A DNA stretch of 40,227 bases from an uncultured Nocardioides sp. Lineage in GTDB: Bacteria; Actinomycetota; Actinomycetes; Propionibacteriales; Nocardioidaceae. Made by a program: the position numbers and the translations under genes. The stretch covers positions 1 through 40,227 of the forward strand of contig NZ_CADCUP010000085.1 in assembly GCF_902805925.1 (NCBI RefSeq), read 5' to 3'. The notes under the pieces were generated by a model, which had not been told where the DNA came from, made no database searches, and was given only the letters and a program-made list of their open reading frames with translations. Shown in pieces: positions 9,961 to 13,188 of the stretch. The first letter of the stretch is position 1; each line of letters starts with the position of its first letter.

Positions 9961-10671
9961 GTGAGTGAACCTCGTTCCGTCCTGGTCACCGGCGGCAACC
10001 GCGGCATCGGCCGCGCCATCGCCGAGGCCTTCCTGGCAGCCGGTGACAAGGTGGCAGTGACCACGCGCAGCGGGGGAGCGCCCGAGGGTGCCCTCGACGT
10101 GCGCTGCGACATCACCGACGCCGCGGCCGTCGAGGCGGCGTTCGCCCAGATCGAGCAGGCGCACGGTCCGGTCGAGGTGCTGGTCGCCAACGCCGGGATC
10201 ACCGCCGACACCCTGGTGCTGCGGATGTCCGAGGACGACTGGGACTCCGTCATCGCCACCAACCTCACCGGCTCCTTCCGGCTCGCCAAGCGGGCCGCGA
10301 AGGGCATGCTGCGGCTGCGCCGCGGCCGGATCGTCTTCATCTCCTCCGTCGTCGGCCTCCTCGGCTCGGCGGGCCAGGTCAACTACGCGGCGTCCAAGGC
10401 CGGCCTCGTCGGCATGGCGCGCTCGCTGGCCCGCGAGCTCGGCAGCCGCTCGATCACCGCCAACGTCGTGGCTCCCGGCTTCGTGGAGACCGACATGACC
10501 GCTGTGCTCACCGACGAGCAGCGGAGCAGGATCAAGGAGCAGGTGCCGCTGGCGCGCTACGCCACTCCCGACGAGGTCGCCTCCGCGGTCGCGTGGCTGG
10601 CCTCCGACGGCGCGGCGTACGTCACCGGGGCCGTGATCCCGGTGGACGGCGGACTGGGCATGGGTCACTGA
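9961..10671 (+). CDS. fabG: 3-oxoacyl-ACP reductase FabG (MabA-like)
   Basis: SDR motifs GGNRGIG, YAASKAG; directly upstream of a FabI/InhA-like gene. Confidence 0.88.
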   Translation: MSEPRSVLVTGGNRGIGRAIAEAFLAAGDKVAVTTRSGGAPEGALDVRCDITDAAAVEAAFAQIEQAHGPVEVLVANAGITADTLVLRMSEDDWDSVIATNLTGSFRLAKRAAKGMLRLRRGRIVFISSVVGLLGSAGQVNYAASKAGLVGMARSLARELGSRSITANVVAPGFVETDMTAVLTDEQRSRIKEQVPLARYATPDEVASAVAWLASDGAAYVTGAVIPVDGGLGMGH

Positions 10672-10689
10672 GAAGGATGGGTCACTGAC

Positions 10690-11460
10690 ATGGGAATCCT
10701 CGACGGCAAGCGCATCCTCGTGGCGGGGGTGACGATGGACTCCTCCATCGGCTTCGCCACGGCGAAGGTCGCCCAGGAGCAGGGCGCCACGGTGCTCGTC
10801 TCCAACTTCGGGCGGGCGCTCGGCATCACCCGCCGCATCGCCAAGCGGCTCCCGCAGGAGCCCCCGGTGATCGAGCTCGACGTGACCGACCAGGGCCACC
10901 TCGACGGGCTCGCCGACGCGGTGCGCGAGCACGTGGACGGGCTGGACGGGGTCGTGCACTCCATCGCCTACGGCAACCCGCAGACGCTCCTCGGCGGCCG
11001 CTTCCTCGAGGGCCCCTGGGACGACGTCGCGCAGGCGGTGCAGGTCTCGGCGTACTCGCTGAAGTCGCTGGCCGTCGCCACCAAGCCGGTGATGTCGGAG
11101 GGGTCGTCCATCGTCGGACTCACCTTCGACGCCACCAGCGCCTGGCCCGCGTACGACTGGATGGGGGTGGCGAAGGCGGCGCTCGAGTCGACCTCGCGCT
11201 ACCTCGCCCGCGACCTCGGTCCCCAGGGCATCCGCTGCAACCTCGTCGCCGCCGGCCCCCTGAAGACCCTGGCCGCCAAGGCGATCCCGGGCTTCGAGGA
11301 CCTCGAGTCGTCGTGGAAGGACCGCGCCCCGCTCGGCTGGGACGAGTCCGACCAGGAGCCCACCGCGAAGGCGGTCGTGGCGCTGCTCTCGGACTTCTTC
11401 CCCGCCACCACCGGCGAGATCGTGCACGTCGACGGCGGCTTCCACGCGATGGGGCTCTGA
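10690..11460 (+). CDS. fabI: Enoyl-ACP reductase FabI (InhA-like)
   Basis: MGILDGKRILVAGVTMDSSIGFATAKVAQEQGATVLVSNFGRALGITRRIAKRLP, typical InhA-type N-terminus. Confidence 0.93.
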   Translation: MGILDGKRILVAGVTMDSSIGFATAKVAQEQGATVLVSNFGRALGITRRIAKRLPQEPPVIELDVTDQGHLDGLADAVREHVDGLDGVVHSIAYGNPQTLLGGRFLEGPWDDVAQAVQVSAYSLKSLAVATKPVMSEGSSIVGLTFDATSAWPAYDWMGVAKAALESTSRYLARDLGPQGIRCNLVAAGPLKTLAAKAIPGFEDLESSWKDRAPLGWDESDQEPTAKAVVALLSDFFPATTGEIVHVDGGFHAMGL

Positions 11461-11490
11461 GGCCGGCCCCGCCTCGCGTAGCGTGCCGCC

Positions 11491-13188
11491 GTGACCTCAC
11501 TCGTCGAGCTGCGCGTCCTCGAGGGGCCGAACCTGTACTTCCCGCGGGCCGCGATCAAGCTGACCCTCGACATCGGGGCCATCGCCACCGCGCCGACCGA
11601 CCGCGCGGTGCGCCTCGCCGGCCGGATCGGGCTGCGCAACGCCCGGCCGGGCGAGCCCGGCACGGGGTTCCGGCAGCGCTTCGCGCTGCGCGCGGTCGAG
11701 CGGCTGGTGCGCGCCATCGCCTCGGAGTCGGGTACGGCGCGGCTCGCCGTCCGGGTGCGCTCGACCGGCGACCCGAACCAGGTCGTGGTGGCCTTCCCGT
11801 GGCGCAACCGGGAGCGCGCGCAGGCGATGGGCCGCGCCGTGGCCGACGTGATCGACCACCTCCCCAGCGCCGACGTCGACACGGTGGTCGGGGAGGCCGC
11901 TGCCCGGGTGGCCGCGTCGCCCGTCGGCGCGCCACCGCACACCATCGTCCCGCGGATCCCCGTGGTGGCGGTGACCGGCACCAACGGCAAGACCACGACC
12001 AGCCGGATGATCGCCCACATCGCCCGCGCCGACGGGCGACTGGTCGGCTGGTCCAACACCGACGGGATCTACGTCGACGGCGAGCTCATCGAGGCGGGCG
12101 ACTACTCCGGGCCGAGCGGCGCGGGCCGCGTGCTGGCCCATCCGCAGGTGCAGCTCGCGGTCACCGAGACCGCCCGCGGCGGCATCCTGCTCAAGGGCAT
12201 CGGGCTGTCCCGCAACGACGTCTCCGTCGTCACCAACGTCACCGCCGACCACCTCGGCCTCCAGGGCATCGACACCGTCGACCAGCTCGCCGAGGTGAAG
12301 GCGGTGGTGCCGCGGATCACCCGTCGCAGCGGCTGGTCGGTGCTCAACGCCGACGACCCGCGGGTCTACGCCATGCGCTCGGTGGTCGTGGCCCGGCCGT
12401 GGGTGTTCTCCCGCGACCCCGACTCACCCGGGGTGCGCGAGGTCCTGGGCGAGGGCGGCCGGGCCACCACCGTCATCGACGGCTGGGTGAGCGTGCTCCG
12501 TCCCGGTGAGGACCCCGACCCGCTGGTGGAGCTGGTCGAGGTGCCCATGACGCTGGCCGGGCTGTCGCGCTTCAACGTGGAGAACACCCTGGCCGCCGCG
12601 TCCGCCGCCCTGGCCGTCGGCATCTCGCGCGAGGTGGTCGTCGAGGGGCTGCGCACGTTCCGTCCCGACCCCGAGCACAACCCCGGCCGGATGAACTTCT
12701 TCACGGTGCCGGGTCCGCGCGGCGCCGTCTCGGTGGTCCTCGACCTGGCGCACAACGAGGCGGGCCTCGAGGCGATGCTCGAGATCATGAACGGGGTGCG
12801 GGTGCCGGGTCGCCGCCTGGTCCTGGGGCTCGGCGCCGTGGGCGACCGCACCGACGACCTGATCGAGATGCTGGGCGAGATCGGTGCCCGGGACAGCGAC
12901 GTGGTGATGATCGGCCACAAGGAGGGCTACCTGCGCGGCCGCACCCTCGAGGGGCTGGAGGCCCTGCTGCGGGCCGGTGCCGCACGCGTGGGCGTGACCG
13001 ACATCGAGTCGAGGCCGACGGAGGTGGCGTGCCTGGAGGCCATGGTGGACCGGGCGGAGCCGGGGGACGTCGTCGGCCTGATGTGCCACGCGGAGCGCCA
13101 CGAGTGCTACGCATGGATCGCCGGGCGCGGCGGCACCGCCGACTCGCCGGAGGCGCTGGCGGCCAAGGTGCGGGCGGCTCGCGGCTGA
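11491..13188 (+). CDS. Mur ligase family protein, CphA-like N-domain plus Mur-ligase domain without ATP-grasp
   Basis: N-terminus LRVLEGPNLYFPRAAIKLTLDIG parallels the CphA N-domain; AVTGTNGKTTTSRMIAHI and ETARGGILLKGIGLSRNDVSVVTNVTADHLGLQGIDTVDQLAEVKAVV closely parallel the CphA Mur domain on the neighbouring gene; no ATP-grasp region. Confidence 0.85.
   Translation: MTSLVELRVLEGPNLYFPRAAIKLTLDIGAIATAPTDRAVRLAGRIGLRNARPGEPGTGFRQRFALRAVERLVRAIASESGTARLAVRVRSTGDPNQVVVAFPWRNRERAQAMGRAVADVIDHLPSADVDTVVGEAAARVAASPVGAPPHTIVPRIPVVAVTGTNGKTTTSRMIAHIARADGRLVGWSNTDGIYVDGELIEAGDYSGPSGAGRVLAHPQVQLAVTETARGGILLKGIGLSRNDVSVVTNVTADHLGLQGIDTVDQLAEVKAVVPRITRRSGWSVLNADDPRVYAMRSVVVARPWVFSRDPDSPGVREVLGEGGRATTVIDGWVSVLRPGEDPDPLVELVEVPMTLAGLSRFNVENTLAAASAALAVGISREVVVEGLRTFRPDPEHNPGRMNFFTVPGPRGAVSVVLDLAHNEAGLEAMLEIMNGVRVPGRRLVLGLGAVGDRTDDLIEMLGEIGARDSDVVMIGHKEGYLRGRTLEGLEALLRAGAARVGVTDIESRPTEVACLEAMVDRAEPGDVVGLMCHAERHECYAWIAGRGGTADSPEALAAKVRAARG

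Follow-up and report, generated by a model that had tools for sequence, protein, structure and literature searches.

A CphA-like Mur ligase without an ATP-grasp domain is encoded beside cphA and cphB in Nocardioides and has a changed acceptor pocket

Cyanophycin, a polymer that stores nitrogen, has been described as the product of the synthetase CphA1 (or CphA2) and as being broken down by cyanophycinase together with a dipeptidase. CphA2 retains the ATP-grasp site, and its Mur site is degenerate. The enzyme thus reduced to a single active site works on beta-Asp-Arg dipeptides (PMC10206079). CphA1 can cut its own primers by means of the N-domain zinc-peptidase motif Cx19HxxEH, which is present in 83% of CphA1s (PMC9262961). 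The roles of the ATP, Mg and catalytic residues in its Mur (M) domain have been assigned (PMC9427784; PMC9262961), and mutation of D585-H586 in SuCphA1 inactivates this domain (PMC9262961). The UDP-MurNAc-tripeptide synthetase MurE carries a DNPR/DNPA acceptor-specificity motif, in which the first Asp binds the lysine amine, while the Asn and Arg bind the carboxylate of mDAP (PMC3829189). Here we analyze a CphA relative that retains the N and M domains only, hereafter the Mur-only protein; we found no paper describing such a protein in the literature searched.

The window, i.e., the whole stretch of 40,227 nucleotides analyzed here, derives from a Nocardioides genome. ORF calls and translation of the window revealed an open and intact frame for the Mur-only protein, located next to cphA and cphB (Table 1). 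Both of these neighbors were complete in profile searches, as the initial annotation had proposed, and inspection of the CphA sequence showed that it carries the primer-making motif Cx19HxxEH. Close relatives of the Mur-only protein all come from Nocardioides, Marmoricola, and other Nocardioidaceae or Propionibacteriales. A degenerate P-loop pattern matched the window exactly twice, in the Mur-only gene and in cphA, compared to zero matches expected by chance. Promoter and terminator scans found nothing. The start of the Mur-only gene lies 30 bp downstream of the end of fabI, and the tight same-strand run fabG-fabI-Mur-only (window 9961-13188) is seen in Actinomycetia.

Table 1. Coordinates of the Mur-only gene, its functional segments and its neighbors in the window.
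Feature	Coordinates	Strand	Remarks
fabG, 3-oxoacyl-ACP reductase, FabG1-like	9961..10671	+	upstream, same direction as Mur-only gene
fabI / InhA-like enoyl-ACP reductase	10690..11460	+	directly upstream of Mur-only gene, same direction
Mur ligase without ATP-grasp domain, CphA-like	11491..13188	+	565 aa, GTG start
N domain, residues 1-150	11491..11940	+	CphA N domain homologue; signature (E)xRxLxGxNLYF..A.K conserved
Mur P-loop AVTGTNGKTTT	11968..11999	+	K, T, N invariant in 107/107 relatives
Catalytic Asp253-His254	12247..12252	+	equivalent to SuCphA1 D585-H586; invariant in 107/107
Acceptor-selecting loop GDR-T-D ... H-K-E-G-Y-L-R-G-R	12841..12942	+	CphA R778 replaced by T; recharged; Tyr480 family-invariant
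cphA, cyanophycin synthetase, 924 aa	13300..16074	-	TIGR02068 1174 bits; convergent with Mur-only gene
cphB, cyanophycinase, 339 aa	16074..17093	-	TIGR02069 250 bits; 1-base overlap with cphA

In this protein, a complete Mur-ligase domain follows immediately on an N domain of the CphA type, with no ATP-grasp domain. Its best NCBIfam match is the cyanophycin synthetase model TIGR02068, which aligns over the Mur part only (377 bits, E = 1.6e-112, profile positions 477-848 of 862) and thus below the curated CphA1 equivalog cut-off of 850 bits over the full length. Pfam searches likewise recovered only the Mur middle and C-terminal domains, with no ATP-grasp match, and the Pfam model Cyanophycin_syn stayed below its threshold on the N-terminal 150 residues. 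Profile-profile comparison with hhalign, however, aligned these residues with the CphA N domain at a probability of 92-94% (E = 6e-7 to 2e-8). The Cx19HxxEH motif is absent from this segment; judging from its sequence, the N domain has lost the primer-cutting zinc motif. Among solved structures the best matches are those of CphA1 (7lg5/7wac). An AlphaFold model built from 51 window-family sequences (mean pLDDT 92, pTM 0.89) aligned in Foldseek with full-length CphA1 (7lgj, E = 1.2e-40; 7wae, TM 0.82 over the query) across both the N and M domains, the ATP-grasp (G) domain appearing as one large gap. The N-M arrangement of CphA is therefore predicted to be kept. The CphA-type N-terminus, the close similarity of the Mur domain to that of CphA and the loss of the whole ATP-grasp module, all noted in the initial annotation, are in agreement with these comparisons. 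In relatives from families f31 and f38 (L020, L022, L023, L024, and L025), a TPR region of about 150 aa (PF12688, checked on L155) is fused to the C-terminus of the Mur-only protein.

Compared to CphA1 (TIGR02068; 7lg5, 7lgq, 7wae), the Mur-only protein shares the N and M domains, which the predicted fold places in the same way relative to each other, every M-domain residue for ATP binding and catalysis, and the cphB gene neighbor; it differs in lacking the ATP-grasp domain and the zinc motif, and in its acceptor residues and loop (see below). Similar to CphA2, it is related to CphA, has a single remaining active site and occurs in organisms with cyanophycin metabolism, but it retains the Mur site, and the functional ATP-grasp site that defines CphA2 as a polymerase of beta-Asp-Arg is gone along with its domain. 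The earlier description of the protein as the inverse of CphA2 is thus fair as a statement about architecture only. With MurE it shares the Mur-ligase fold and mechanism, and its acceptor loop is equivalent to the DNPR motif; its N domain, however, is CphA-like and not of the UDP-MurNAc-binding kind. A mis-assigned murE gene is ruled out by this N domain, by a score of 84 bits against TIGR01085 (MurE; cut-off 257 bits), and by the separate MurE encoded on another contig of the same genome.

In an alignment of 107 relatives, the positions corresponding to the ATP, Mg and catalytic residues of CphA1 (N497, K499, T500, T522, E558, D585, H586, R731, and H748) were identical in all 107, so that the ATP site, whose possible degeneration the initial annotation had considered, is intact. 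The median pairwise dN/dS of the family is 0.28, indicating that selection keeps the protein; together with about 100 intact relatives, this value rules out a chance or frame artefact.

The acceptor side of the Mur site, by contrast, differs from that of CphA. R778, invariant in 81 actinobacterial and nine other CphAs, is replaced by T, Q, S, or rarely another residue in Mur-only proteins (S in the alphaproteobacterial members), and S542, invariant in every CphA examined, including those of distant phyla, is Gly in all of them. H650 is changed to V, A, or T in nearly all members, and E607, which contacts bound cyanophycin in SuCphA1, mostly to R, Q, or K. The acceptor loop reads R-E-D-x-x-L-R-G-R in CphA and H-K-E-[RKH]-Y-L-R-G-R in Mur-only proteins, the latter being one residue longer and containing an invariant Tyr. 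Position -5 shifts from 92% E/D to 92% K, and basic residues at position -3 rise from 6 to 77%. R805 and R807 stay the same, an acidic residue is partly retained at one loop position (62% E/D), and the lysine position is not conserved in alphaproteobacterial members. Because the loop is recharged and the acceptor residues are changed, the nucleophile is probably not arginine but may be a compound bearing a further carboxylate, as far as can be read from a sequence alignment to MurE and CphA. Overall, the comparison sets the Mur-only protein apart within the CphA superfamily as a conserved and probably active enzyme that has an acceptor pocket of its own.

The N domain is also charged differently: it carries +6.5 in actinobacterial Mur-only proteins compared to -5.3 in CphA, but -10 in alphaproteobacterial Mur-only proteins. 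We therefore no longer take N-domain basicity to signal an acidic polymer substrate across the family. As for E607, this residue is invariant in actinobacterial CphAs, Gln in one Chryseobacterium CphA, and replaced in nearly all ATP-grasp-less lineages, including independent ones in Deinococcus and Legionella (R, R, and H); there is a hint here that it may serve the hand-over with the ATP-grasp site.

Trees of the M domain unite the actinobacterial Mur-only proteins in one clade (support 100/99), which joins the alphaproteobacterial ones with 99/99, rising to 100/100 once long branches are removed. A clade uniting Mur-only proteins with actinobacterial CphAs was rejected (p-AU 0.00017), and no grouping with a Mur ligase of unrelated function was seen. 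The gene thus represents an old lineage and not a local copy. The label "paralogue" given in the initial annotation is not to be taken for a recent local duplication of cphA, which is ruled out; the age and multi-phylum spread of the clade had escaped that annotation, as had the loss of the N-domain zinc motif and the reduction of the ATP-grasp domain in separate lineages. The window protein itself carries the markers of the clade, i.e., a YLRGR loop lengthened by one residue, Gly in place of S542, and a residue other than Arg at the R778 position.

Separate losses or shortenings of the ATP-grasp domain were found on Deinococcus plasmids, where the proteins group with Deinococcus CphAs (98/98), and in Legionella adelaidensis, whose protein groups with a Chryseobacterium CphA (100/99, with long branches). 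Like members of the Mur-only clade, some of these adjoin cphA and/or cyanophycinase genes; in contrast to them, they keep R778 and S542, have no Tyr in the loop, and fall outside the clade. Loss of the domain alone, then, does not demand a change of the acceptor site. On the plasmid of Deinococcus sp. KNUC1210 (L183:5687-8186), the relative with the reduced ATP-grasp domain lies in a cphA-iaaA-cphB cluster and is annotated as two genes (693 and 144 aa), a split that looks like a frameshift. The L. adelaidensis plasmid protein (L186:5326-8970) carries an N-domain zinc motif of the primer type that is intact, and its gene adjoins those for a cyanophycinase and an isoaspartyl peptidase, with no cphA in the stretch.

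The Mur-only gene is tightly associated with cphA in other genomes, an association on which the initial annotation had made its reading depend. Among 396 nearly complete Actinomycetia genomes, 29 encode both proteins, eight CphA only, and none the Mur-only protein alone (Fisher p = 5e-37, kinship not corrected for). Within Nocardioides, 16 genomes have both and nine have neither, with none having just one. The same holds for a set of 297 Actinomycetia genomes, in which the Mur-only protein appears only with CphA, and for 397 genomes from across the phylum, where all 21 matching genomes match both. Wherever the two genes lie on the same fetched stretch, they are convergent (94/94 loci), with gaps ranging from about 0 to 8.8 kb; the link therefore survives insertion of other genes. 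The fabG-fabI neighborhood is confined to Actinomycetia and does not extend to the remaining classes of the phylum. The sole neighbors shared between classes are CphA and CphB, and we found no further conserved partner genes in the other classes. Outside Actinomycetota, the lineage is known from plasmids only: tblastn located Mur-only-type genes immediately downstream of cphB-cphA in Shinella, Ruegeria, and "Roseateles" XES5. Eight of the 37 CphA-bearing Actinomycetia genomes have no Mur-only gene, so the protein is not needed for cyanophycin synthesis as such.

On balance, we lean towards the view that the Mur-only protein is catalytically active as an ATP-dependent amide ligase of the Mur type, is devoted to cyanophycin metabolism, acts in trans, and probably uses a nucleophile other than arginine. 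Since there is no ATP-grasp domain, it would not extend an Asp backbone as CphA does, and we infer that it acts on CphA products or CphB fragments. The CphA-type N domain would keep cyanophycin, as a chain or a fragment, in place at the Mur site, where ATP would phosphorylate an Asp carboxylate, most likely that of a side chain or of the chain end. An amine would then displace the phosphate to yield an amide bond, by analogy with the Mur domain of CphA. With the acceptor loop rebuilt, this amine is probably not arginine, and the more basic loop suggests a nucleophile with an extra carboxylate, such as Asp, Glu, or a beta-aspartyl dipeptide. The proposal of the initial annotation, a putative ligase for decorating a pre-existing polymer or for forming another kind of isopeptide, fits this picture and is strengthened by the recharged loop. 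Cyanophycin with glutamate, lysine, citrulline, or ornithine side chains has been reported in other settings (PMC8560796), so that altered side chains are chemically plausible.

A bolder version, which we offer only tentatively, sees in these proteins a third, widespread class of cyanophycin ligases in Actinomycetota and some Alphaproteobacteria, attaching in trans a unit other than arginine, be it a beta-aspartyl dipeptide or an acidic amino acid, to part of the polymer or to its ends; in its boldest form, the reaction would run in reverse and recover ATP while opening the beta-Asp-Arg isopeptide bond in organisms without known isoaspartyl dipeptidases. That a third enzyme accompanies cphA in its inheritance in several classes and phyla, and combines a preserved active site with a modified acceptor pocket, implies that the polymer chemistry of these bacteria is not fully known, and they may make a cyanophycin form that has yet to be described. 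Being one protein with defined substrates, the Mur-only protein offers a ready test case and possibly a tool for making side-chain-modified cyanophycin.

Other readings account for parts of these data. The N and M domains take part in the CphA tetramer, and a protein sharing both might lack catalysis and serve CphA as a regulatory or structural partner, but the identity of every tested ATP and catalytic residue in the 107 relatives and the dN/dS of about 0.28 make this highly improbable. Mur ligases serve many pathways, and the position 30 bp behind fabG-fabI in Actinomycetia would suit a peptide ligase of, e.g., the cell envelope or of a small peptide that is merely sited beside cphA. We consider this improbable, given that the fabG-fabI link is absent in other classes whereas that to cphA persists, up to a tandem arrangement in Alphaproteobacteria, that none of the 396 genomes has the protein without CphA, and that the CphA-specific N domain is kept in a genome whose MurE is encoded elsewhere. 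A rather unlikely, though closer, reading is that of a helper arginine ligase, which would carry out the CphA Mur reaction in trans, filling aspartates left bare by CphA or priming chains. The same Mur active site and N domain, the constant company of CphA, and the retained loop residues R805 and R807 all fit such a helper, and the loop motif need not be the only determinant of which side chain a Mur ligase selects (PMC3829189). Yet R778 and S542, invariant in all examined CphAs, are changed in all Mur-only members, and the acidic loop residues are replaced, whereas both residues persist where the ATP-grasp domain was lost independently, in Deinococcus and Legionella. A role as primer provider, in particular, is unlikely: the zinc motif is absent from the Mur-only protein and present in the local CphA, which therefore needs no outside primer maker.

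It is also conceivable, though unlikely, that the protein handles the beta-Asp-Arg released by cyanophycinase, either by re-ligating it to chains, which is the job of CphA2 carried out by the opposite domain, or by splitting the isopeptide in reverse with recovery of ATP. A dipeptide nucleophile would explain the more basic acceptor loop, and the distribution of isoaspartyl dipeptidases leaves room for such a role. IaaA (PF01112) is missing in 45 of 47 tested genomes with the Mur-only gene, IadA was found in none of the 27 such genomes tested for both enzymes, and the window genome yielded neither; among CphA genomes without the Mur-only gene, IaaA is present in three of eight, in two of them beside cphA (Fisher p = 0.018, kinship not corrected for). 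The two genes also alternate in plasmid clusters, with cphB-cphA-mur and no iaaA in Shinella and Ruegeria, and cphA-iaaA-cphB and no mur in R. leguminosarum. However, IaaA is rare in the class anyway (6/198 genomes), and reverse operation of the ligase is speculative. Other cyanophycin dipeptide hydrolases exist, of the M14/aspartoacylase-like type (cited in PMC10206079), and the PF04952 model used for the aspartoacylase type covered a 76-residue piece only; on account of this model and the rarity of IaaA, we retain replacement of an isoaspartyl dipeptidase solely as a rival reading. The absence of IaaA and IadA moreover conflicts with the statement that all cphA1-bearing Actinomycetota examined (35 genomes in the table) have iadA and/or iaaA (PMC10206079). 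A ligase that adds a non-arginine unit in trans stays our preferred reading. Among genomes without a Mur-only protein, three of family f12 (G010, G031, and G049; L162-L167) encode two full-length CphAs, one of which has an odd acceptor loop of the PSLVNLRGR type and adjoins iaaA in two of the genomes.
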